A stretch of DNA of 33,036 nt. Source: an uncultured Roseiflexus sp. Lineage in GTDB: Bacteria; Chloroflexota; Chloroflexia; Chloroflexales; Roseiflexaceae. Below, in pieces: positions 8,563 through 33,036 of this stretch (positions within the stretch are counted from its first letter, which is position 1; each line of letters begins with the position of its first letter). Below the pieces are notes generated by a model. That model had not been told where the DNA came from. It was given only the letters and a program-made list of their open reading frames with translations, and did not search any database. Where the stretch lies: NCBI GenBank assembly GCA_937935075.1, contig CALGYB010000203.1, forward strand, positions 1-33,036. Direction: 5' to 3'. The translations under genes and the position numbers were made by a program.

Positions 8563-9570
8563 CTATGGCAGGTGAAATGGTCGTGCCAGCGTTGCGAGGC
8601 AGTCGCCCTGGCGCACGAGAGGGAACGCGCGCCGACTGATCAGCAAGCCTTCCGTTCTGGCCTGCACGAGCGTCGGCGGCTCGAAGGGCTGATCGATTGA
8701 ATGGATCTGACCAAGCGCCTGACCTGTGATGATCCACGCGCCCATTTCGACGAAAGGCTCGAAGATGCCGCTCACCGGCGCCATGATGTAATCGTCGTAC
8801 TGATCGGCGGCTATGATCTGCGCAGACGCGGGCGGCGGTTCGGGCGCCTGATCGGTCAGGATGCCCGCCTGACGCAGCACATTGCGTACCCCCCGCTCCG
8901 TCATGCTGAGCATCTCGGCGCCAAACTGCGCAGCGCTGCCCATTTCTGTGCCAAGCGTCAGCTTTCCCAGACGTTCGGCTTCGCCAGGCAGCAAACCCGT
9001 GCCGCCCACATCGCGATAGAGCAGGACGTAGGGCGCGCCCCACGCCAGCGCCAGATCGATCATGGCGCGCAACTGGTCGTGGTTGGGAACCTTGTGCATG
9101 CTGACCAGCGGCAGAAAGTGCGCCGACCGTCCGCCGGAGTGAATGTCGATCACCAGATCAGCCAGCGGAAAGAGCGCCGTCGTGACGTAATGCGCGATCA
9201 TCTCGGTAATCGTTCCGTCGGCGCGTCCGGGGAACACGCGATTCATGTTTTTGCCATCAAGCGGTGACAGTCGGGCGCCGGCGGCGAGCGCCGGTCGGTT
9301 CAACATGGGGAGGATGATGATCCGCCCACGGATACTGTCTGGTGCGAGGGTGCGCGCCAGGTTCAGCAGCGTCACCGGTCCTTCATACTCATCGCCGTGG
9401 TTGCCGCCAAATAGCAGCGCCGTCGGTCCGGGAGCGCCGTTGATCACGGCAATCGGCAGATATTCGGTCGCCCATCCAGAGGTGTTGGTCGATTGTGGAA
9501 TGGCCAGTCGCCCCAACTGCTTGCCAGGCTGTTCAAAATCGACCAGGGTCACGATCTGTGTTGCGCTCAT
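8563..9570 (-). CDS. Zn-dependent deacylase, DoeB/aspartoacylase (M14-like) family
   Basis: A 335-aa protein from ATG 9570, overlapping the stop of the upstream gene (ATGA) with GGAG 5 nt before. The zinc motif [10 protein letters not shown] gives H58 and E61, and DIHSGG gives H144. [14 protein letters not shown] is the substrate-anchoring segment and E209 (LGTEMG) is the likely catalytic Glu. The C-terminal 100 residues form a beta-rich domain with a biotinyl-lipoyl-like look ([17 protein letters not shown]). Overall layout and motifs are closest, as far as I can recall, to N-acetyl-diaminobutyrate deacetylase of ectoine catabolism (DoeB/EutE), but the rest of an ectoine pathway is absent here. 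Hydrolysis of an N-acyl amino compound in the cytoplasm is the best guess. Confidence 0.85.
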
Positions 9571-10946
9571 AGACTCTCCAATCCGCTGATAGCGGCGGCA
9601 ATCGTTTGTTCCAGGCAACCGGGAAGGAAGGGCGACTGTTGTTCCTGATACAGACCGCTGCCATACGCATCGCGGGGCGGGAGATAGCCCAGTGTGCCAT
9701 TGGTGCAACCAAGAACCAACACAGGTTGGCGATGAAATCGGGTGCGGAGTTCGACCTGCATCCGGGCATACGCTTCGTTGGGACAGGCGACGAGGAGCGC
9801 ATCACCTAACCGCCAGAACCAGAGCGTCATCGGATACACCGGCTCATCGCCAAGGGCCGCCTGGAGCATGCGGCGCCGCAGCGCTTTCTCCGCCTCAGCG
9901 ATGGCATCGCTGCGGTCAGCCCCTGGAGGATCGACCGGCGTAAGGTCGGGCTTGCGTTGCAGCGGCACGAGCGTACTGTGATGCCGGAGAGTCGCACAGC
10001 GTCTTTGGGCAGAGTCATCAATCGGCTGATAATCCCAGGTAGCGAGGTTGGCGCCCGAAGCCACCACTCCGGTGTAGACGAAATGTGATGCAGGCGGTGG
10101 TAATGCCTCGAACGCCGCAGCGGCGGCATACGCCAGTTGGCGGCCATTCCGATCGGCGACTGCGGGATCGCCCACGAATCCTTCACGTGGACCGAGATCG
10201 CCCGCAGCGCCATACAGGAACAGGCAGGGTGCGCCGTAGATTGATTCGAGCGTTTCCCGCAGAGCGCCGACGTAATCCGGCGAGAGCAACCGATTCTGCC
10301 AGGCAAGGGTCGTCGGGTGGCAGGCGTAGTTGACCAGTGTGGCCATGATTGTGCCATCCTCTGCGGTCACGCGACCGACGAGCACCGTATCGTCGGCGGG
10401 CGCCGCCGGATTATAGCCGCAGGCATATCTGCCGATATCCGGCGCCCAGAAATCGCGATTTGCCGCCAGTGCACAGCGCCCATACCCGTAGGTGATCCAC
10501 GCCGGGCGCAGCGCGGCTCTGGCTTCAATTATCGCCTCGATGAGCGCATTGGTCAGAGCATCGATGTATGGTTCGATCAAGTGCGCGCCGGGTTTATCGG
10601 TGATCTGGCTATTAATGCACGCGCCAGCGTGGGTATGCGAGAAATTGATCAGCAACGCATCTTCGTCCAGCCCGATTGCGCGCAGGACGGCGTCTCGGAT
10701 GCGGCGCTCATCGGGAAGGTACGGAAACCAGCCCACATCGAGGGCCACGAGCGCCAGCACCGGAGCATCCGCGTGAATATGGCGCATCACCAGCGCCGTC
10801 GCCGTGAGCGGCCGATGCACCCCCTCGGCGACATCGTGGCGCGCAGCCGCCCAGGAGCGTGCATAGATGCCAACCGGCGGCGTCACATCGCGGCGCGCGA
10901 CGCCAACCGCACAATGGGTAAAACCATGGATCTGCGTCAGGTTCAT
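9567..10946 (-). CDS. Neutral ceramidase N-domain-like protein (PF04734-like), paralogue 1
   Basis: A 459-aa protein from ATG 10946 (MNLTQIHGFTHCAVGVARRDVTPP), with a GAGG about 7 nt upstream. The opening VGVARRDVTPPVGI, the HTH at 104-106 (NFSHTHAGA) and H210 (VNYACHPTTL) match the zinc-site regions of neutral ceramidases. The nucleophile motif of true ceramidases (GDxSPN) is here GAAGDLGP (246-253), with Gly in place of Ser. There is no signal peptide and the C-terminal Ig-like domain of real ceramidases is absent, so ceramide is an unlikely substrate. Genes of this type are often mis-named ceramidase. Its overlap with the DoeB-like gene suggests a shared pathway. A metal-dependent hydrolase of an amide, ester or lactone is plausible. 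Confidence 0.85.
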   Translation of the reverse strand: MNLTQIHGFTHCAVGVARRDVTPPVGIYARSWAAARHDVAEGVHRPLTATALVMRHIHADAPVLALVALDVGWFPYLPDERRIRDAVLRAIGLDEDALLINFSHTHAGACINSQITDKPGAHLIEPYIDALTNALIEAIIEARAALRPAWITYGYGRCALAANRDFWAPDIGRYACGYNPAAPADDTVLVGRVTAEDGTIMATLVNYACHPTTLAWQNRLLSPDYVGALRETLESIYGAPCLFLYGAAGDLGPREGFVGDPAVADRNGRQLAYAAAAAFEALPPPASHFVYTGVVASGANLATWDYQPIDDSAQRRCATLRHHSTLVPLQRKPDLTPVDPPGADRSDAIAEAEKALRRRMLQAALGDEPVYPMTLWFWRLGDALLVACPNEAYARMQVELRTRFHRQPVLVLGCTNGTLGYLPPRDAYGSGLYQEQQSPFLPGCLEQTIAAAISGLESL

Positions 10947-11034
10947 GGATTGCCTCGCTTCTGATGACCACTGTGTCGGCGCTTCCTCGATGATAGAGTT
11001 TGTGCCAGGATGCTTCGTGGGTGCTTTGTTTCCT

Positions 11035-12006
11035 CTACATCCGTGATTGCAGAGCGTTGATCCGCACCGTTTCCTCCAGGCGGCGACGTAAAAAATCGAT
11101 CGACTGCTGATCAATGGTGAATACCACGGTAATGATGGGAAGCACGGGGTTCAAGGCAAGCAGGCGTTCACGGCACGAGCGCGTGACCACAAGCGCGTCG
11201 ACTTGCTCGATCATTTCGTGGAGGCGGGTCCGATCATCGATCAGCGCAGGGACAACCACCGAGGTCGGGTGATAGGTGCGAATGATATGGGACAGACTCT
11301 CAACTGTTCCCGGCGAGTCGCACACAAGACCGAACGTCGGCACATGCAGGCGTGCCAGCGCAAGCAGCGATTCATGGGATGGCGTCGCCAGGACGCCAAC
11401 CACCCGCTGACGCGCTGAAGCCGGTACAGCCTGGCGAATCTGCCCAAGATGCTGAAACGTGGTCACAATCAGATCGTAGCGGTGTGCCGGAGTGACCGGA
11501 TCGCGCAGGACATCGTCGAGCAACGCCCGATCCATTGGCGCATCGGCAATACTTTCGATCTCGTCGCCGAGCGTTTCAACATCGCGCCGGTTGCATTCGA
11601 CAAACAACACGCGAGGCGCCTCAGACCCATACGACTGTTGCACAGCGTTGTGGATCAGGTCGAGCAACTGGCTGCGGCTTAACCCTGCCTGCTGAGCAGC
11701 CTGAACGAAGCGCTCGATCTGCTGCTGTAACGTTGGTTGATCGTCCTCTGATCTGGCGCAAACAAATGCGCCTCGACCGCGTGATACTTCGATCAACCCG
11801 CGTTGTTCCAGTATCTGGTAAGCGCGTGCAGCGGTATTCTTGTTCACCTGATACTGTTCTGCAAGTTCACGGACAGTTGGCAGGCGCATGCCGAACCGGT
11901 ACACGCCGGCGCGGATCTGTTGCTCCAGAACATGCACAATTTCACTTGCGCGCAGTGAGCGTTGTGCGGTTTCGCCGTGCGAATCAGAATCGGTTGTGTC
12001 TTTCAT
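11035..12006 (-). CDS. GntR-family regulator with periplasmic-binding-protein-like effector domain
   Basis: A 323-aa protein. ATG 12006 (MKDTTDSD) is preferred; an upstream in-frame TTG at 12027 is possible and no strong ribosome-binding site is seen for either. The winged helix-turn-helix spans about 17-85 (RLPTVRELAEQYQVNKNTAARAYQ, then LIEVSRGRGAFV). A short helical linker follows and then a region from about 132 with alternating beta-alpha pattern (RVLFVECNRRD, YDLIVTTFQHL, VVGVLATPS, TSVVVPALIDD, PIITVVFTID), which looks like a partial periplasmic-binding-type domain rather than FCD or UTRA. It probably controls the downstream genes (ceramidase-like to amidohydrolase) after binding a small ligand. 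Its own leader carries repeated GACA/TGTC half-sites that recur before the second importer, hinting at autoregulation and a shared regulon. Confidence 0.85.
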   Translation of the reverse strand: MKDTTDSDSHGETAQRSLRASEIVHVLEQQIRAGVYRFGMRLPTVRELAEQYQVNKNTAARAYQILEQRGLIEVSRGRGAFVCARSEDDQPTLQQQIERFVQAAQQAGLSRSQLLDLIHNAVQQSYGSEAPRVLFVECNRRDVETLGDEIESIADAPMDRALLDDVLRDPVTPAHRYDLIVTTFQHLGQIRQAVPASARQRVVGVLATPSHESLLALARLHVPTFGLVCDSPGTVESLSHIIRTYHPTSVVVPALIDDRTRLHEMIEQVDALVVTRSCRERLLALNPVLPIITVVFTIDQQSIDFLRRRLEETVRINALQSRM

Positions 12007-12585: not shown

Positions 12586-14205
12586 CTAACCCAGGAAGCG
12601 ATGAATGACATTTGAGGTGATACGTGATACGTGCGGATCAACCAGCAGTGCAAGCGGCCAGGTGATTGATCCGACCGAGAAGACGCTGCCGCCGCTGCTG
12701 GTTGTGTAGGACGCCATCTCAGCGCCGCCATTGTCTGGATTCAGCCCTTTCGCAAGCAGATCCGTTCCCGCCGGCGACGACGCGCTCATTTTATCCGTTT
12801 CGTGGCCGGAGGCGCCTCCAGGGCAGCGTTCGTGCAGACTCTCCGCGCCAAAGATATCGCCGTTTTGTAAGCCTGTGCCTTCAAACACCCAGTGATCCGC
12901 CTTCACTACCCGGTATGGAGCGGCAGTCATAATCCCGGCGTCGGTCGTGACAACGCCGAGCAGGCTGGCTTCCGGCGCAACAGTGGCGTGGAACCTGCTC
13001 TCGAAATAGACATCCGGGCGCTGCGGGTCGCGCATGCCCAGGCTGCCGTCGCTGCTGAGCAGCTGCGTCTTGCAGCGCATTGTCGCACTATCCAGGAACT
13101 CGACTTCACAGTTGAGACCGTTCCCTCCCAGATACATCAGTTTGCCGCCGCGCTCATCAACCCATGATTTCACTCGCTCGAACATGGTGCGCGACCAGTA
13201 CTCCGGGTGAACACTGAGGATCAGGACGGCGTAGGCATCGAGGTCGAGCGTGCCATCGTGGAGTTGGGTGTCAGCGTACAGGTCGTAGGCGAACCCTTCG
13301 CGCTCCAGCCATCCGAGCAGGCGCCACTCTGCTGGCGCCAGGCTGCTGGCCAGTCGCCCGGGAACCGGATCGAGAACGTGGGCATTTCCGGGTACACTAT
13401 TCCCAATTTCGGGTCTGTCGAACGACAACGGCGCGTAGGCGTCATTGGGCGCGTGCCATTCGGACAATCCGCTTCCTGCATAGCGCGGCAGATCGAGCCG
13501 CGCGTTCACCGTTGGAGTCGGCGGGAGCCGGGTTGCGTTGATGTAATTGCTGCGCCCGCCAAAGTTGTTGTAGGCGTTCCAGGTATTGGTGGAAGCAAGC
13601 ACAGCAATGGGGTGCGCCGGTTTCGCGGGAGCGACGACCCACGGAAACGCAAAGAATTCGCCGGCTTCGTTCTCGGCGTGCAGGTAGTACAATCCTGATC
13701 GCTCGGGCGCGGTAACATATTGGGTGTGGTGGAGACTGCCGTATCCCTGCGTGTTCCAGCGCACCCCGGTCTGGGTGTAATCGCCGTCGGGCGTGACCTG
13801 CATCACCGCGCGCGGACCATGTTCGTCGAACCAGCCGAGCGGGCGCACCCGGACTTTCTCCCACCCGTAGCGCCAGAGACTCAGGTGATACGGGGTCGTC
13901 GAGTGGACGCGGAATTCGCTGCGTTCGCCGGAGCGCACCCATTTGGGCCACATGTAGCCGAGCAGGCGGTCGGAAAGCAGGCGAAAATGGTGCGGATGTT
14001 CGGCGGATACGGTGATGTTCACCCGTTTGGCGCCATATCCCGGCTTGTGCAGCGTCACCTGATACATCCCAGGAGCGATGTCGGTATGCACAGCGCCGCC
14101 CGGCGTTGATCGCGCGACAGCGACGGTATGTCCATCAGCAGTAAATTCCAGCACCACATCGCACAGCGCCATATAGTGTTCATCACTGACATATCCGACC
14201 AGCAT
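12586..14205 (-). CDS. N,N-dimethylformamidase large-subunit-like protein
   Basis: A 539-aa protein from ATG 14205 with AGGAGG 6 nt upstream. The first 78 residues form a small beta-rich domain (VARSTPGGAVHTDIAPGMYQVTLHKPGYGAKRVNITV) like PEGA/carboxypeptidase-regulatory modules. The rest resembles the C-terminal domain of dimethylformamidase beta subunits: LLGYMWPKWVRSGE, GLYYLHAENEAGEFFAFPWVV, NTWNAYNNFGGRSNYIN, LLSVHPEYWS-type segments (here LILSVHPEYWSRTMFE), LMYLGGNGLNCEVEF, and a closing GSGSVFSVGSITW-like segment. In the characterised enzyme an iron is held by two Tyr and a Glu; I could not map these with certainty. No small subunit gene is present. It may hydrolyse an amide other than dimethylformamide. 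It is flanked by non-coding repeats, so its membership of the operon rests on orientation only. Confidence 0.8.
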   Translation of the reverse strand: MLVGYVSDEHYMALCDVVLEFTADGHTVAVARSTPGGAVHTDIAPGMYQVTLHKPGYGAKRVNITVSAEHPHHFRLLSDRLLGYMWPKWVRSGERSEFRVHSTTPYHLSLWRYGWEKVRVRPLGWFDEHGPRAVMQVTPDGDYTQTGVRWNTQGYGSLHHTQYVTAPERSGLYYLHAENEAGEFFAFPWVVAPAKPAHPIAVLASTNTWNAYNNFGGRSNYINATRLPPTPTVNARLDLPRYAGSGLSEWHAPNDAYAPLSFDRPEIGNSVPGNAHVLDPVPGRLASSLAPAEWRLLGWLEREGFAYDLYADTQLHDGTLDLDAYAVLILSVHPEYWSRTMFERVKSWVDERGGKLMYLGGNGLNCEVEFLDSATMRCKTQLLSSDGSLGMRDPQRPDVYFESRFHATVAPEASLLGVVTTDAGIMTAAPYRVVKADHWVFEGTGLQNGDIFGAESLHERCPGGASGHETDKMSASSPAGTDLLAKGLNPDNGGAEMASYTTSSGGSVFSVGSITWPLALLVDPHVSRITSNVIHRFLG

Positions 14206-14437
14206 GGCATGCCTCCTGGAATAATATGTGACAGAAGGGGAGTTCCGCCCCTGGAAGCGTCGGAGTGTCCAGGCGACTCGTCAGACGGCATCCTGGCGCA
14301 GCGGGCTAATGAACATAGTTCGGCACGACGGTGCGCTGCGATCTGAAGCTCCGGCTAAGATCATGCCAGCCCATGCGGGGCTTTCATGTCTTCAGCGAGG
14401 ACTTATGAATATTAAGAATGACTTCACTGCAAAAAGC

Positions 14438-14497
14438 AACCACGAAGGTCACAAAGGGACACAAAGAACCTTCGTGCGCTTCGTGTCCTTTGTGGTT
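14438..14497. repeat. Solo palindromic CACGAAGG repeat
   Basis: AACCACGAAGGTCACAAAGG and its near-complement ending TCCTTTGTGGTT form a 60-bp hairpin. The 17 bases before it (GACTTCACTGCAAAAAGC) are the same as those before the tandem array at 32674, so this is a solo copy of that element. On the plus strand the stem is followed by AAGCCTTTTTT and might terminate transcription. The rest of 14206-14437 holds nothing assignable. Confidence 0.8.
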
Positions 14498-14554
14498 AAG
14501 CCTTTTTTCAGTGGACTCAAGAATTTAATTCGGCATACGCCACCTGCCCTTCGA

Positions 14555-14573
14555 CCCTTCGACAGGCTCAGGG
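14555..14573. repeat. Short stem-loop, CTTCGACAGGCTCAG core
   Basis: CCCTTCGACAGGCTCAGGG, followed by GGGCGCGCT, is the inverted form of the stem-loop at 12304-12322. Confidence 0.6.
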
Positions 14574-14680
14574 GGCGCGCTACTGGCGGTATACCCAAAG
14601 AAATACTTTCATTAGCCCGCAGCGAGACGGCAGTTCCTGACACATCCTGCCCGCACCCATCGCTCTTCACTCTGTGCGAT

Positions 14681-14749
14681 GCCTCTCGCCTCTCGCCTCT
14701 CGCCTCTCCCCTCTCCCCTCTCGCCTCTCCCCTCTCCCCTCTCCCTCTC
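14681..14749. repeat. Heptanucleotide tandem array, SCCTCTC type
   Basis: Nine exact-phase 7-bp units (GCCTCTC or CCCTCTC) and a partial tenth run right up to the stop codon of the leftward gene at 14748-14750. Read on the minus strand it is a GAGAGGS repeat beginning at a gene's 3' end, the same placement as the GAGAACC array at 2421-2470. Confidence 0.9.
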
Positions 14750-15860
14750 AATCCGTGCGATACCGCTCGACCTTTCGCTCGTCCAGCGCCACGCCCAATC
14801 CAGGTCCCGACGGCGCTCTGGCAATGCCTGCCTGCACAGGCAGCGGTTCAGCCAGAATGTCGGACTCGTAGAAAAACGGTCCGATGATGTCGCAGGGAAA
14901 CGCCTCCGCATCAATTGCTGGCGTCGCCAGCGCCAGGTGGATCATGGCTGCGCTGCCGATGCCGAGTTCCAGGTTGCTGCCGACCGTGCAGACGATCCCC
15001 GCTGCTTCGGCAATCGCAGCAATCTTTCGTGCAACGCCCAGGCCGCCTTTGCCGACGTAGACCGACAGGACATCGGCAGCCGACGCTCGCACGAGCGCCA
15101 TCGCATCCTGGGGCGCGGCAACGCTTTCATCCGCCATAATCGGTATTTCGACCTGTCGCCGCACCTCGGCCATCCATGCCACATCGAACGGCGCGACCGG
15201 TTGTTCGGCGAAGATGAGATCGTGATCGGCGAGCCGCCGGATGGTTTGAATGGCTGTGCGCGGCGACCATCCGCCGTTTGCATCGATTGCCAGCCGAATG
15301 TCGGGGCCAACCGCAGCGCGCACGGCGCGCACCCGCGCAATATCCTGCTCAGGTTCGATGCCAACTTTGATTTTCAGGGTGCGGAAGCCCTGTTCAACCG
15401 CCCATACCGCAATCTGCGCTGCTTGATCCGGTTCACGCCCGGAGATGGAAAACTTCGTCGGCACGGCGTCGCGCACCGGACCGCCAAACAGACGGTAGAG
15501 CGGCAAGCCGGCGATCTTGCCCAGCACATCCCAGAGCGCAATCTCAACACCGGCTTTGGTGAAGGGGTGCCCGGCTATCCCGCGATGCATACGCAGCGTG
15601 AGACGTTCGATCGCCGTCGGGTCTTCGCCAATCAGAAGCGGCGCAAGGTAGGCAGTGATGCAGTGAACAGCGGTCGTCTGGTCTTCCCCGCTCCAGATGG
15701 GCGTGCACGACACCTCGCCCAACCCGATCACTCCTTCGTCCGTGTGGACCCTGACCAGCACGAAGGGAGACTCCGTATGGCTGCCGCGACCGCCCTGGAT
15801 TGCGAGTTGCTGATTGATTGGCACGCGCACCGGAATGGTCTCGATGTGCGAAATCTTCAT
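14748..15860 (-). CDS. Enolase-superfamily enzyme, muconate-lactonizing/dipeptide-epimerase type
   Basis: A 370-aa protein from ATG 15860, which overlaps the creatininase stop (ATGA) and has AAGGTG upstream. It carries the two-lysine active site of the MLE subgroup: KIKVG (K163 and K165) and K271 (VYVGKGGLG). The metal ligands are D193 (AIDANGGW), E219 (FAEQPV) and D244 (IMADES). This layout supports proton transfer from either face: cycloisomerisation, epimerisation or N-succinylamino acid racemisation, rather than the Asp-His dehydration chemistry of the other two paralogues. Coupling to a creatininase-family hydrolase suggests the pair act on consecutive intermediates. The stop codon abuts a heptanucleotide array. 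Substrate not deducible. Confidence 0.88.
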   Translation of the reverse strand: MKISHIETIPVRVPINQQLAIQGGRGSHTESPFVLVRVHTDEGVIGLGEVSCTPIWSGEDQTTAVHCITAYLAPLLIGEDPTAIERLTLRMHRGIAGHPFTKAGVEIALWDVLGKIAGLPLYRLFGGPVRDAVPTKFSISGREPDQAAQIAVWAVEQGFRTLKIKVGIEPEQDIARVRAVRAAVGPDIRLAIDANGGWSPRTAIQTIRRLADHDLIFAEQPVAPFDVAWMAEVRRQVEIPIMADESVAAPQDAMALVRASAADVLSVYVGKGGLGVARKIAAIAEAAGIVCTVGSNLELGIGSAAMIHLALATPAIDAEAFPCDIIGPFFYESDILAEPLPVQAGIARAPSGPGLGVALDERKVERYRTD

Positions 15861-16630
15861 TGGGTCACCTTATCGAACTCCAGAAAAGCATGAGTCACGG
15901 CGTCAACGATGGCATCGAGATACATGCGCCCGTCCTCTGCCGTCGCCTGTGCCGGGTTATCGCTGTACCCATCGATTGCCTGCCAGAACCCGTGCGTTTC
16001 CAGGCGAAACGGCGCCGCTTCCGGCGGCTCGTTCTCCTTCGTCCAGCCGCGGGATGGCAATGGCAGACGCACAAGTTCGGGACGCAGCGCAAGCATCAGC
16101 GCACTCTCGAAGCCGCCAGCGTGCCCGGGCAGGCGTTGACCATGATGGGCATGCAGCGCGACCAGTCGCTCGCGCGCGATCTCCCAATAACTGGCGGCGC
16201 CGATCCGCAGCGGATGCCGGAGCGCCATATCACGCGCTACGAGTTGCATGATTTCCTGGTTGCCGCCATGCCCGTTCAGTATGAACATGCGCCGGAAGCC
16301 GCAGGCGCTCAGCGATGTCACGATGTCAACGAGCAACTGATAGTAAACAGTTGCGCTGAACGAGATCGTACCGCCAAAGGAGAGATGATGATCCGATGAG
16401 CCGAACGGAAGAGTCGGCGCAACAATCATCGGAATGTATTGTGCTGCTGCTGCGGCGGCGGTGCGTGCCACATACTCAACAATGATCCAGTCGACGCCGA
16501 CGGGAAGATGGGGTCCATGCTGCTCCACTGCGGCAATCGGCAGGATGAGCAGCGCACTCACGCTGGCAACGCGCAGATCGTCACGCGTCAGTTCATGAAA
16601 GAGGTGAACTGACGAACGTTGACCGGTCAT
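15857..16630 (-). CDS. Creatininase-family metal-dependent hydrolase
   Basis: A 257-aa protein from ATG 16630 with GAGG 6 nt upstream. Motifs: PIAAVEQHGPHLPVGVD (E36, H38 and D47 as metal ligands), GSSDHHLSFGGTIS, NGHGGN (H121) and GHAGGFESA (E175). Creatininase itself has a Glu two residues after that His (NGHYEN); here it is Gly, as in the wider family that includes hydrolases of cyclic amides, of 3-dehydro-scyllo-inosose and of formamidopyrimidines. It probably opens a ring (lactam, lactone or cyclic ketone) in the cytoplasm. It is 36 nt after the SDR gene and overlaps the next enolase-superfamily gene, so all three likely act in one route. Confidence 0.87.
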   Translation of the reverse strand: MTGQRSSVHLFHELTRDDLRVASVSALLILPIAAVEQHGPHLPVGVDWIIVEYVARTAAAAAAQYIPMIVAPTLPFGSSDHHLSFGGTISFSATVYYQLLVDIVTSLSACGFRRMFILNGHGGNQEIMQLVARDMALRHPLRIGAASYWEIARERLVALHAHHGQRLPGHAGGFESALMLALRPELVRLPLPSRGWTKENEPPEAAPFRLETHGFWQAIDGYSDNPAQATAEDGRMYLDAIVDAVTHAFLEFDKVTQ

Positions 16631-16666: not shown

Positions 16667-17437
16667 TCATCGAAACGGACGCGGCAGCGGCGGATGCCCA
16701 ATCGTCCAGCCGCCGTCGACTGCCAGATTCTGACCGGTGATATACGATGCCTCATCGGAAGCCAGAAAGAGTGCTGCGGCTGCGACTTCGTCGGGGCGCC
16801 CCATGCGGTCGAGCACCGTCATCTCGCGCCAGAAGCGCGAGATGTCTGGATCGTGTTTCAGGCGCTCGATATCGGGCCGGCCAGAATCGATGATGCCGGG
16901 GCTGATGGCATTGACGCGAACACCGTGCTTGCCGAAGTCGATCGCCATAGAACGCGTCAATCCAAACAGGGCGCTCTTTCCTGTCACATACGCGGCGTGA
17001 TTGGCGGCGCCCGTCATGCCTTCCACTGAGGCAATGGTAACAATCGATCCGCCGCCGGTTTTGAGCATCTCCTGAACAGCATACTTCGAGCAGTAAAAGA
17101 CGCCGTCCAGGGTCACAGCAAGCACGGCGCGCCACTCTTCGGGCGTCATGGCTGCGGCATCGAAGTAACCGCCCAGGTGCGCGGCGGCATTGATCAGAAT
17201 GTCGAGGCGTCCATAGCAGGCGACGGTTTCTGCAACCGCTGCGCGACACTGTTCGGCGATCGCGACATCGCAGAAGATGAACTGTCCGCTCATAGATTCC
17301 GCTGTGCGCCTCCCGTCGTTTTGGTTGATGTCGGCAATTGCGACGCGCGCGCCCTCCTGGGCGAAGCGCCGGGCGCATGCTGCTCCAATTCCGGTTGCGC
17401 CGCCGGTGATCAGCGCCACTTTGTCGAGTAGCCGCAT
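16667..17437 (-). CDS. Short-chain dehydrogenase/reductase (SDR)
   Basis: A 256-aa protein from ATG 17437 with AAGGAG 7 nt upstream. Classical SDR features: TGGATGIG (11-18) for NAD(P) binding, an acidic D36 after the second strand (IADIN) that favours NAD, NAAA at 83-86, the catalytic S137, Y150 and K154 (YVTGK), and the C-terminal GQNLAVDGGW. Likely oxidises a hydroxyl of a sugar, sugar acid or cyclitol. It follows the second ceramidase-like gene by 58 nt and precedes the creatininase gene. In non-phosphorylative sugar catabolism an SDR usually makes the lactone or keto intermediate, which fits the hydrolase next door. Confidence 0.9.
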   Translation of the reverse strand: MRLLDKVALITGGATGIGAACARRFAQEGARVAIADINQNDGRRTAESMSGQFIFCDVAIAEQCRAAVAETVACYGRLDILINAAAHLGGYFDAAAMTPEEWRAVLAVTLDGVFYCSKYAVQEMLKTGGGSIVTIASVEGMTGAANHAAYVTGKSALFGLTRSMAIDFGKHGVRVNAISPGIIDSGRPDIERLKHDPDISRFWREMTVLDRMGRPDEVAAAALFLASDEASYITGQNLAVDGGWTIGHPPLPRPFR

Positions 17438-17495: not shown

Positions 17496-18917
17496 TCATC
17501 TGTGCTGCTCCAGTGATACATCTCGCAACAGCGCCAGGCTTGCATCAACCAGAATATCGGCGGCTTCGGGAGCAAACGGCGTGATCTCGATTTCGTATCC
17601 GCCCAACGGATAGGCATCGGCGGTGGGGATGTACGCCCAGCCGATATTCGCGTAACCGGTGAAGAGCGTATATGGAAAGGGCGAGCCGGCCTTTACACGT
17701 CTGCCAATGTTGCAGAACGGTTCGCCTGGCACGGCTGGCAGGGCGATCTGGTCGCCAATCGCAAAGGTTTGCAGGGTCACGGTGCGATAGGTGTGACCCG
17801 CATTGCGGCGCGCAAGATCGGCGCGCATGCCGGCGCGCTTTGCCAGCATCGTCTCGGTGCGGATCGCCTCGAGATCGCCGCCTTCGGCGCGCAGATGGTT
17901 GAGCCGTGCGATATGCTGCGCTGCCGCCGCAGCCAGTTCGGCAGCCGGGGCGAACTGTTTCAGCGGCAATTGCGCCTCGCGCACACCAACCCGGAGCGTG
18001 GCATCGAGGTCGGGCAGGCGCTCATCTTGGTAGATCGCCAGTGGCGCGCCGGACTCCAGCGTTCCGGCGTAGCGCTCACGCCGCCGCCACGGTTCGAGTC
18101 CCCACCAGATCCGGCTCACTTCGTGGCCCAGGATGCTCCCCAACCGCCGATACTCAGCCAGACCATTGCGGGCGACGCCCCGGATCGGTCCGAGATCGCC
18201 GGCTGCTCCCTGAAGGAACAGGCATGTCGCGCCGGTGGACTGTTCGACGACGCGCTTCATCACCCCTGGATAGTCGGGCGTAATCAGGTCGCAATCAGGA
18301 CCGACCGTAATCGGGTGGCAGGCATAGTTCACGATCACCGCCAGTGGCGCCCCATCCAGATCGTCGAGCCGCACGACCTGCACCTGATGATCAACCGGAC
18401 CAGCCCAATTGCGCCCACAAACGACCGCGCCATCTTCAGGTCGCTGAAATCGCCGATTAACGTTGATCCGCGCCTCGCCGGAACCGGCAGCAATGCGCAC
18501 CGGGCGCATCCGTTGCAGGGCCTGCCGGGCGACACCGGCGATATGATGTTCCAGAATTGCGTCGTAGGCTGGTGTTATCTCGGCGCCTTCCTTCACCCAC
18601 GAACTCCAGGTTGCGCCGTTAACTGGCCCGGAGTGGGTATGGGTGTAGGCGAGACGGATATGCGAAGACGGCAGACCGGTCGCATGCTCCACCGCCTGCA
18701 TGACGCCGGGCGCCTCCGTATCCCAGAGGTAGACCAGATCACTATCAACGATCACAACCGTCTCGATCCCATCAGAGAGCGCCAGCGCCGTCGCCCAGAG
18801 CGGCAGATCGACGCCAGCGGCCCGCTGATGGGTCTGCGCGCCCCACCCGGCATGGGCAATTCCGGGGGGCGGCGTGATATCTGTTCGAGCGACTCCAGCG
18901 TGTAGTCGTCGCGCCAT
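17496..18917 (-). CDS. Neutral ceramidase N-domain-like protein, paralogue 2
   Basis: A 473-aa protein from ATG 18917, with AGAGGA upstream and only 2 nt after the ferritin-like gene's stop. It shares layout with the protein at 9567-10946: GVARTDITPPPGI at the start, YTHTHSGP (H93, H95), NYACHPITVGPD (H201) and GAAGDLGP (237-244). Again Gly replaces the Ser of the ceramidase nucleophile motif, and signal peptide and C-terminal Ig-like domain are lacking. The two copies are clearly diverged, so they probably handle different substrates or steps. Tight coupling to a ferritin-like gene is unusual for the family. Cytoplasmic hydrolase is the best call; ceramide is an unlikely substrate. Confidence 0.85.
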   Translation of the reverse strand: MARRLHAGVARTDITPPPGIAHAGWGAQTHQRAAGVDLPLWATALALSDGIETVVIVDSDLVYLWDTEAPGVMQAVEHATGLPSSHIRLAYTHTHSGPVNGATWSSWVKEGAEITPAYDAILEHHIAGVARQALQRMRPVRIAAGSGEARINVNRRFQRPEDGAVVCGRNWAGPVDHQVQVVRLDDLDGAPLAVIVNYACHPITVGPDCDLITPDYPGVMKRVVEQSTGATCLFLQGAAGDLGPIRGVARNGLAEYRRLGSILGHEVSRIWWGLEPWRRRERYAGTLESGAPLAIYQDERLPDLDATLRVGVREAQLPLKQFAPAAELAAAAAQHIARLNHLRAEGGDLEAIRTETMLAKRAGMRADLARRNAGHTYRTVTLQTFAIGDQIALPAVPGEPFCNIGRRVKAGSPFPYTLFTGYANIGWAYIPTADAYPLGGYEIEITPFAPEAADILVDASLALLRDVSLEQHR

Positions 18918-18919
18918 GG

Positions 18920-20182
18920 TTATTCCTCTTGTTGCAAGATCGCCGGCACAAGTCCGGTATACGCCATGACAATCGGGTCATCGGCGTGGGCCTGTTCATA
19001 TGCGGCGCGCAGTCGCATCGTCTCGCGCTCGATCTGACGGAAAGCCGCTTCATCACTGTTGAGCAGCCAGCGTAGCCAGCGCCCGTTCTTCACGTGCGGC
19101 ACCTCATCGGCGTGGACAAAATCGTTGAGCAGGGCATACGGGAAATCGCCGCGCGCACGGGCGGTTTCGCGGTAGCGGATCAGATCCGGCATGCCCAGTT
19201 TTTCACCGCGCAGATGCAGATCATAGAGCCGGTGCGGGAAGTCGAGGCTTATCCGATAGGCGTAGTTGCCGGGGATGACCGGAAAATCGCCCAGTTTGCC
19301 GCCCAGATGCTCCAGGTACCGCTGATAGAGCACGGCGTGGCGCACTTCATCCCAAAGCTGGCGCGCCATATCAACGTGGTATTCCCAGGGCATCTCTGGA
19401 TGCTCATAGAGGTTGCGACCGAGCAGTTCGGCGGCGTGCATCTCATTATCGGCATCGCGGTGCGCCATCATCAGCGCCATTTCGTGTTCATCGGCGGGTG
19501 GATGATCGGCGGCCCGCTCGCCGAAGCGGAAGCGCGCATCACGGGCGGCGATCGGCGGCGCCGGTCGCACCGTTTGGTCCTCGAAGGAACCGCTGGCTTC
19601 GCGCTCAGCCGCAGTTGCCGGGTCGGCGAAACTGCCGATCCCATCGCATGCCTCAGCCACAGCGGATTCGTAGTTCTGCGCAACGGCACGCGCCGCAGGC
19701 GAGAACGACTCGAGCAGCGCCATGCCCTGGCTTATCTGTTCTTCTTCGTCGGCGTGGATTCGCGCAAGCAGATCCCGGGTTGGCTCATCAGCCAGTGATG
19801 CGCACGCCTGGTGATGAGCAGCATACGCTGCCACAAGGCGCGGCTTCACCTGGCGATAGACCGCAGCAACGAATGCAGCGCTGTCGGGTGCATCATCGAG
19901 CAACCGCAACATCCGGCAGGTCGCCTCGCCAGGGTTGAGCGGCGCGCGGCGTGGCCAGCGCAGATCGATCAGACGGGACAGCCATGCATCGGCATGCTGC
20001 GAATCCTGCCAGAGATGCCGTCCCAGCAGACATTTCAATTCCCACTCAGGCAGTTCGGCCATTCGTCCTGCCGCGATACGCATCAATTGCGCCTCAATAT
20101 AGTGATAACGCGCTACCAGACGGGCCGTCTGGGCCACATCGAACCCGCTATCAAGCCGGTAACCGGCGTAGATGTCGTACAT
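18920..20182 (-). CDS. Tandem ferritin-like (DUF455-type) protein, possible di-iron enzyme
   Basis: A 420-aa protein from ATG 20182 (MYDIYAGYRL), with AAGGA 8 nt upstream. It appears to hold two helical ferritin-like halves. The first (about 20-165) has E30, E48 with H56/H63 (WELKCLLGRHLWQDSQHAD) and HADEEEQI (143-150). The second (about 235-395) has E247/H249, the EXXH-like DEVRH (E279, H282) and HADEVPHVKNGRW (357-369). The second half looks like DUF455. The Glu/His spacing suggests one or two metal centres, as in di-iron oxygenases. No signal peptide. It lies 2 nt before a ceramidase-like gene and 56 nt after the galactonate-dehydratase-like gene. It could be an oxygenase or dealkylating enzyme on the imported substrate, or a tRNA-hydroxylase-like protein; the role is not established. 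Confidence 0.75.
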   Translation of the reverse strand: MYDIYAGYRLDSGFDVAQTARLVARYHYIEAQLMRIAAGRMAELPEWELKCLLGRHLWQDSQHADAWLSRLIDLRWPRRAPLNPGEATCRMLRLLDDAPDSAAFVAAVYRQVKPRLVAAYAAHHQACASLADEPTRDLLARIHADEEEQISQGMALLESFSPAARAVAQNYESAVAEACDGIGSFADPATAAEREASGSFEDQTVRPAPPIAARDARFRFGERAADHPPADEHEMALMMAHRDADNEMHAAELLGRNLYEHPEMPWEYHVDMARQLWDEVRHAVLYQRYLEHLGGKLGDFPVIPGNYAYRISLDFPHRLYDLHLRGEKLGMPDLIRYRETARARGDFPYALLNDFVHADEVPHVKNGRWLRWLLNSDEAAFRQIERETMRLRAAYEQAHADDPIVMAYTGLVPAILQQEE

Positions 20183-20238
20183 GGCTTGATCCTTCCCGGG
20201 AAAACAGGTGAACGTGCAGAGACGTTTATGCACCGTAT

Positions 20239-21405
20239 CTACCAATCAGCCACGGAACCGTCGGGATGGAAATAGCGTTGCACCAGTTCCGGTTGCCACG
20301 GGTGACGCGCCGCCTCGCGCTCATTCACCTCGATGCCTAATCCGGGGCGTGAGGGCGCCGCAACATACCCATCCCGCACCTCATGCTCCGAGTCGACCAC
20401 ATCGTATCGCCAGGGGACATCGTTGCTGATCGCTTCCTGAATCACCCAGTTTGGCGTTGCAGCGGCAAAATGAATGGCAGCCGCAGTTGCAATCGGCCCA
20501 TTCGGGTTATGCGGCGCGACGGCCATCGAGTATGCTTCGGCGAGAGCGGCGATCTTGCGCGCTTCCCACAGACCGCCGCAGTGCGAAAGATCGGGCTGAA
20601 TGATGTGGCAGGCGCGCCGCTCGAACACTTCGCGGAATTGATGTCGCCCCACCAGGCGTTCACCGGTGGCGATCGGGATGTTCGAGGCGCGGGTGACCTG
20701 AGCAGTGGCTTCGATATCCTCGCTGGGGCAAGGCTCCTCGAAAAAGAGCAGTCCATATGGCTCGAATGCGCGGCAGTAGTGCAACGCCATCGCCGGGGAA
20801 GCGCACCGTGCGTGGAGATCGACCATCAGATCGACACTGTCGCCGACCGCATCGCGCACGGCGTGCACCAGACGCTCGGCGTAGCGCACCGGACGCATGC
20901 CTTCGATAGGCTCAGTCCGCGGCACGGCCATGAACTTGATCGCCGTATACCCCTGCTCCTGGACTGCCAGCGCGCGTTCGGCAAACATTTGCGGATCGGT
21001 AGTTTCGTACATCTGTTCCATCTCGCCGCCGCCGAGATGGTTGTACACCCGAATGCGATCACGTACCCGACCACCAAGCAACTCATAGACCGGCACGTTC
21101 AACCATTTGCCTTTGATGTCCCACAGCGCCTGCTCGATGCCGCTGATAGCCGTCATACCCTCGATACCGGCGCGCCAGAAGTACTGACGGGTCATCATCT
21201 GATACAGGTGTTCGATACGCCGGGGGTCTTCACCGATGATCAGGCGACTGACATCGTCGACGGCGCCCACCACGCCTTTCGTTTTCCATTCGAGTGTCGC
21301 CTCGCCCCAGCCGTAGAGACCGTCCTGATCGGTTTCGACCTTCACAAAGATCCAGTTGCGCATCCGTGCGTGCACAACGAGTGTCGAGACGCGGGTAATT
21401 TTCAT
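20239..21405 (-). CDS. Enolase-superfamily enzyme, D-galactonate dehydratase-like
   Basis: A 388-aa protein from ATG 21405 with GGAG 7 nt upstream. Metal ligands are D196 (MVDLHAR), E223/E224 (FFEEP) and E249 (TGER). H198 in the VDLHAR motif and H299 (APHNPNGP), with D272 (QPDLSHCGG), are the acid/base groups typical of the galactonate dehydratase/mannonate dehydratase subgroups. K157 lies in AIKFMA. It likely dehydrates a C5 or C6 sugar acid to its 2-keto-3-deoxy form. It is the first catabolic gene after the importer genes (53 nt gap), so its product or substrate is close to the entry point of the pathway. No 2-keto-3-deoxy-sugar-acid kinase or aldolase is visible in the window. Confidence 0.88.
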   Translation of the reverse strand: MKITRVSTLVVHARMRNWIFVKVETDQDGLYGWGEATLEWKTKGVVGAVDDVSRLIIGEDPRRIEHLYQMMTRQYFWRAGIEGMTAISGIEQALWDIKGKWLNVPVYELLGGRVRDRIRVYNHLGGGEMEQMYETTDPQMFAERALAVQEQGYTAIKFMAVPRTEPIEGMRPVRYAERLVHAVRDAVGDSVDLMVDLHARCASPAMALHYCRAFEPYGLLFFEEPCPSEDIEATAQVTRASNIPIATGERLVGRHQFREVFERRACHIIQPDLSHCGGLWEARKIAALAEAYSMAVAPHNPNGPIATAAAIHFAAATPNWVIQEAISNDVPWRYDVVDSEHEVRDGYVAAPSRPGLGIEVNEREAARHPWQPELVQRYFHPDGSVADW

Positions 21406-32673: not shown

Positions 32674-33036
32674 AACCACGAAGATCACCAAGGGACACAC
32701 AGGAAATGCGCTTCATTTTTACGAACCTTCGTGCGTTTCGTGTTCTTGGTGGTTCAGCCGGTGTGCAGTAACCACGAAGGTCACCCAGGGACACGAAGGA
32801 CATGCGCTTCATTTTTATGAACCTTCGTGCGCGTCGTGCCCTTGGTGGTTGAGCCGGTGTGCAGTAACCACGAAGGTCACCAAGGGACACGAAGGACATG
32901 CGCTTCATTATTTTTATGAACCTTCGTGCGCTTCATATCCTTGGTGGTTGAGCCGGTGTGCAGTAACCACGAAGGTCACCAAGGGACACGAAGGACAGGC
33001 TTTCATTATTTTTATGAACCTTCGTGCGCTTCGTGT
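32674..33036. repeat. Tandem array of 96-99 bp palindromic CACGAAGG units, cut by the window end
   Basis: Units start at 32674, 32770, 32866 and 32965 (lengths 96, 96, 99, then incomplete). Each reads AACCACGAAGGTCACCAAGG, then GACACGAAGGACATGCGCTTC, an AT-rich centre (ATTTTTATGAA) and the near-complement CCTTCGTGCGCTTCGTG...CCTTGGTGGTT, followed by GAGCCGGTGTGCAGT. Each unit can thus fold on itself. Short open frames through the array encode near-identical repeats and are not genes. Confidence 0.9.

Follow-up and report, generated by a model that had tools for sequence, protein, structure and literature searches.

A tandem DUF455 ferritin-like protein with one complete di-metal ligand set, encoded next to a ceramidase-like gene in a Chloroflexota operon

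Closest described systems

The Pfam family DUF455 (PF04305) is without known function by Pfam's own label, and no functional paper for DUF455, PF04305 or COG2833 was found by literature search. The di-metal carboxylate ferritin-like fold is better known from bacterioferritins, the MiaE tRNA hydroxylase, R2-type subunits, aldehyde decarbonylase and a VlmB homologue. Neutral ceramidases (PF04734) use a catalytic serine (Ser274 in PaCD), which lies in the motif AGNLSP of the Pseudomonas enzyme. The iron site of N,N-dimethylformamidase (DMFase) has three ligands, Tyr440 among them, with Tyr399 and Glu521 as reference positions (PMC7686228). Here we describe a locus in which relatives of these proteins are encoded together. 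The window, that is, the whole stretch of DNA analysed (33,036 nt), is contig C203 in a Chloroflexota genome that comprises 4.85 Mb in 220 contigs.

The locus and its genes

The initial annotation had placed a ceramidase-like paralogue at 17496-18917 and a 420-aa protein 2 nt from it. Both ORFs, 17496-18917 (473 aa) and 18920-20182 (420 aa) on the minus strand, are real and correctly placed. The upstream gene, FER, starts with ATG at 20182 and ends with TAA at 18922-18920, followed by two nucleotides (CC) and the ATG of CER1 at 18917; a longer start (TTG at 20245) has no support from the orthologues. Since dN/dS is 0.07-0.12 against three orthologues, the coding status of FER is certain. The genes discussed below are as follows.

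20239..21405, minus strand: MLE(1), galactonate-dehydratase-like enolase-superfamily enzyme (NF010624, 372.8 bits, cut-off 311)
18920..20182, minus strand: FER, tandem DUF455 ferritin-like protein, 420 aa, ATG start (PF04305, 63.1 bits; orthologues 80-92% identical)
17496..18917, minus strand: CER1, neutral-ceramidase-like hydrolase domain, 473 aa, nucleophile Ser replaced by Gly, Zn-type H95, H201 and E399 kept (PF04734; alignments)
16667..17437, minus strand: SDR dehydrogenase, start approximate (Pfam adh_short_C2)
15857..16630, minus strand: creatininase-family amidohydrolase (PF02633)
14748..15860, minus strand: MLE(2), second enolase-superfamily enzyme (Pfam)
12586..14205, minus strand: DMFase/N-acylase-like protein, DMFA2_C (PF20254)

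On the minus strand the order is an SBP5-DppB-DppC importer, MLE(1), FER, CER1, SDR, creatininase, MLE(2), DMFA2_C, GntR, CER2, an AstE/AspA-like protein, MLE(3) and an amidohydrolase. Because the operon combines amide-hydrolase families (CER1, CER2, creatininase, AstE/AspA-like and DMFA2_C) with two SBP5-type importers and three enolase-superfamily enzymes, it is a reasonable guess from these family assignments that its substrate is an amide of a sugar acid. The earlier suggestion of a possible di-iron protein in a sugar-acid operon is borne out as far as a probable di-metal protein and a galactonate-dehydratase-like neighbour above the NCBIfam cut-off.

CER1 matches Ceramidase_alk (PF04734) with 60.3 bits against a cut-off of 32.1, and the catalytic Ser of AGNLSP aligns with Gly in its AGDLGP, as had been claimed for this paralogue; the same Gly is found in the second paralogue, CER2 (9567-11114), and in four orthologues. 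CER1 has the N-terminal domain family and the Zn-type residues in common with neutral ceramidase, but it differs in the Gly at the place of the catalytic Ser, in its shorter length and in its location in a putative sugar-acid operon. Elsewhere, three tandem ceramidase-like genes occur without FER (L129, 6240-10860, genome G147). The DMFA2_C protein has N-acetyl-(R)-beta-phenylalanine acylase and DMFase as relatives and is homologous to them in its C-terminal region. In the alignments the equivalents of Tyr399 and Glu521 are kept, but the name DMFase should not be applied, since a Trp seemingly replaces Tyr440. In addition, ten copies of the heptamer GCCTCTC form an array at 14681-14749, where the MLE(2) gene ends, before DMFA2_C, and a 96-bp unit is repeated in tandem (3.7 copies, 88% match) at 32674-33036, up to the contig end. 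No Rfam family was found in the window.

One complete and one degenerate half in FER

FER matches PF04305 with 63.1 bits against a cut-off of 34.3, and the match covers residues 204-384 only; 26 of 29 FER family members match the same model. Profile-profile comparison by hhalign indicates that the two halves of FER are homologous (E 1e-4, 153 columns, probability 56%), so the two ferritin-like halves proposed earlier for the 420-aa protein hold together with the DUF455 match. AlphaFold2 models of the entire FER and of its second half alone, made from five close sequences, are all-helical but of low confidence (pLDDT 45 and 43, respectively). The halves and the ligand codons are located as follows.

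19598..20155, minus strand: FER first half, residues 10-195, degenerate ferritin-like repeat, ligand set incomplete in every homologue (hhalign against the second half)
18983..19570, minus strand: FER second half, residues 205-400, ferritin-like domain with the full di-metal carboxylate ligand set (PF04305; ligands in register in the profile alignment to bacterioferritins)
19442..19444, minus strand: Glu247 codon, helix-1 ligand
19337..19348, minus strand: Glu279-x-x-His282 codons, helix-2 ligands, motif DEVRH
19202..19204, minus strand: Glu327 codon, helix-3 ligand
19094..19105, minus strand: Glu360-x-x-His363 codons, helix-4 ligands, motif DEVPH

The family set comprised 36 near-complete sequences from class and phylum searches, with 22-92% identity to the FER of the window. 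In all 36, E247, E279/H282, E327 and E360/H363 are invariant, so that the set Glu, ExxH, Glu, ExxH is complete; in the second shell D359 is invariant and D278 nearly so. The loss of metal ligands in most homologues, which the initial annotation had named as a result that would speak against it, is therefore absent. At the equivalent positions of the first half, the FER of the window has E30, D60, H63, K113, E146 and Q149, and a complete first-half set is found in none of the 36. The initial annotation had pointed to E/H pairs in both halves: the DEVRH pair (E279, H282) is real and invariant, but HADEEEQ has Q149 where the His is expected, and the helix-3 Glu is K113. Because the set is complete in 0/36 first halves and 36/36 second halves, FER is read as one active-type half plus one degenerate half rather than a protein with two metal sites, and HADEEEQ as the relic of a metal site, not a second one. 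The second half probably binds two metals at the predicted site.

Among PDB entries the FER family profile matched bacterioferritins best (E 5e-6), and their alignments pair the FER ligands with the DExxH motifs and with the glutamates of helices 1 and 3; the VlmB homologue and R2-type subunits were also matched, and the matches to R2, aldehyde decarbonylase and the VlmB homologue are weak. Single-sequence phmmer of FER against PDB gave chance-level matches only. FER shares the six-ligand arrangement, in register, with bacterioferritin, but it is a tandem fusion with one dead half in a catabolic gene context and shows no sign of a cage or haem. Likewise, its second half scores above the gathering threshold of DUF455, but FER differs by the fusion behind a degenerate ferritin-like repeat. 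The fold is probably common to FER and MiaE, but the MiaE family model gave no match for FER in Pfam or NCBIfam at E 1e-3, and the neighbours of the FER family are not tRNA genes. A plasmid search returned one distant DUF455 match, which adjoins transposase genes.

Gene neighbourhoods of FER homologues

At 29 of 35 non-orthologous FER loci there was at least one callable co-directional neighbour within 250 nt, and the 82 neighbours were scanned with Pfam. These included Gfo/Idh/MocA (9), zinc ADH (7), sugar-type SBP_bac_1 (6) and BPD permeases (9), and furthermore DAO, FMN_dh, 2-hydroxyacid dehydrogenase, PfkB, sulfatase, arabinofuranosidase, AP_endonuc_2 and fucosidase. As a control, 69 proteins were taken from arbitrary regions of these genomes; among the families seen more than once in them there was no Gfo/Idh, zinc ADH or SBP_bac_1. 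Carbohydrate-catabolism neighbours numbered 22/82 against at most 3/69 in the control (Fisher p 1e-4, to be taken as a guide since the loci are not independent); L038, L039, L040 and L041 are related clusters within the sample. At least one gene of this type is present at 17 of the 29 loci. This shows that the neighbourhoods of the FER family lean to carbohydrate catabolism. A link of FER to tRNA modification is rejected from these neighbourhoods, and the conserved connection to such an unrelated process that had been raised as a counter-case is not seen. In L041 (3384-10461) a distant FER homologue stands last in a gene row that encodes a protein matching no Pfam family, FMN_dh, Gfo/Idh, 2-hydroxyacid dehydrogenase and DAO, which is a second conserved catabolic context of the family.

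These data bear on the view that FER is a peroxidase or an iron- or oxidant-handling protein of the rubrerythrin/ferritin type, which would guard the metalloenzymes of the operon and not act on a metabolite. Bacterioferritin has the same ligand set, and the best PDB profile matches are bacterioferritins, but dehydrogenases, sugar importers and glycosidases predominate among the family neighbours, a rubredoxin domain was not found, and a tandem fusion with a dead half would be ill-suited to a ferritin cage; we consider this view unlikely.

Conservation and loss of the FER gene

FER and CER1 orthologues adjoin, at 80-92% identity, in G069 (on two contigs), G017 and G032. The gene pair, whose conservation the initial annotation had proposed to check, is syntenic in four genomes, but these are of one order only, and the link of FER to CER1 is weak. 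A gap of 2 nt separates the genes in the window, in L004 and in L005; in L007 it is 110 nt. A metallo-beta-lactamase-fold gene, missing from the window, lies between CER1 and SDR in L004 (11207-12166; Pfam for this copy) and L005 (12176-13141), and a metallophosphoesterase-like gene replaces it or lies beside it in L005 and L007. In other families, CER1 homologues at 59-62% identity adjoin MLE(1) without FER (L119, L120, L121 and L123); the partner conserved with CER1 is MLE(1). MLE(2) and DMFA2_C are present in each of the four genomes that have FER orthologues. These two do not require FER, because both occur without it in G104, in the arrangement DMFA2_C-creatininase-MLE(2) (L141).

A natural deletion was found in two genomes of the same genus, G068 (contig C34, 51 kb) and G067 (C142), in which the operon is 84-96% identical to that of the window and FER is missing.

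19017..20238, no strand: FER segment missing in G068 and G067 (blastn breakpoints; last ~31 codons left with stops; remnant 97 nt)
12868..15836, no strand: second segment missing in G068, MLE(2) plus the 5' 83% of DMFA2_C (blastn breakpoints; same breakpoints in G067, at the contig end)

The first alignment jump leads from window position 20239 (the MLE(1) stop) to 19016, so that only ~31 terminal FER codons, with in-frame stops, are left, and the second from 15837 to 12867. MLE(2) was not found elsewhere in G067 or G068, and of DMFA2_C only residues 447-539 remain in both. An assembly gap is unlikely as the cause, since two separate assemblies show the jumps within contigs and at identical breakpoints. 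The two losses probably represent one lineage and count as a single comparison, since both genomes belong to the same genus and share the breakpoints. MLE(1), CER1, SDR and creatininase are intact in both genomes, and CER1 (92% identity, dN/dS 0.11-0.14, no clear rise) is apparently under normal selection where FER is a stub. Considering these deletions and the arrangements without FER in L121, L123 and L141, FER is a dispensable addition, which travels with the MLE(2)/DMFA2_C side; it is lost in step with MLE(2) and the DMFase-like gene, not with CER1.

The initial annotation had suggested an oxidative step specifically feeding the ceramidase-like hydrolase, which amounts to an obligatory pair in which the product of a di-iron FER is the substrate of CER1. 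The 2-nt gap at three loci and the synteny in four genomes would fit, but CER1 is kept where FER is a stub, it adjoins MLE(1) without FER elsewhere, the gap is wide in L007, and no CER-type gene was found near the non-orthologous FER homologues at any locus. The specific feeding of CER1 is thus not supported, and we regard an obligatory pair as quite improbable.

Proposed role of FER

The reading we prefer, to which we give about an even chance, is that FER is an O2-activating di-metal oxidase or oxygenase, which works in the same optional branch as MLE(2) and the DMFase-like amidase and is non-obligatory for CER1. What we infer for metal binding, O2 chemistry, substrate, the role of the first half and the functional link between FER and DMFA2_C is as follows. 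The second half would bind two metals (Fe/Fe or Mn/Fe) via E247, E279/H282, E327 and E360/H363, and the first half would be a metal-free repeat, which probably acts as a dimer partner or shapes the substrate entrance. FER would most likely activate O2 (or peroxide) to oxidise a small metabolite of sugar origin, and the reaction would be a hydroxylation, a dehydrogenation or an N-/O-dealkylation. The core of ABC importer, MLE(1), CER1, SDR and creatininase would work without it, and a step before DMFA2_C in which a compound is oxidatively dealkylated or hydroxylated would suit the optional branch.

Judged from the ligand set and from what is known of the ferritin-like superfamily, the chemistry is most likely that of a di-iron or Mn/Fe centre which reacts with O2 or peroxide. 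That FER is instead a di-metal protein of sugar catabolism without redox chemistry (e.g., an isomerase, a hydrolase or a regulatory subunit) would fit the operon, in which no electron donor (reductase, ferredoxin or other) was recognised, and the first half, now a non-metal repeat, but it is very improbable, as ferritin folds that carry the whole E, ExxH, E, ExxH set nearly always show redox or ferroxidase activity.

Going beyond this locus, we tentatively suggest, as a possibility somewhat short of even, that the tandem DUF455 proteins, each with one active and one dead ferritin fold, form a widespread but unrecognised class of di-metal enzymes that activate O2 in the sugar and sugar-acid catabolism of Chloroflexota. 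If this is true, the class would provide the first function for DUF455. Oxygenases are uncommon in sugar-acid breakdown, and the invariant di-metal site together with the carbohydrate-catabolic neighbourhoods would bring an oxygen-dependent step into it. Furthermore, the gene-loss comparison picks out MLE(2) and DMFA2_C as the associates of FER, and the neighbouring hydrolase need not depend on it.
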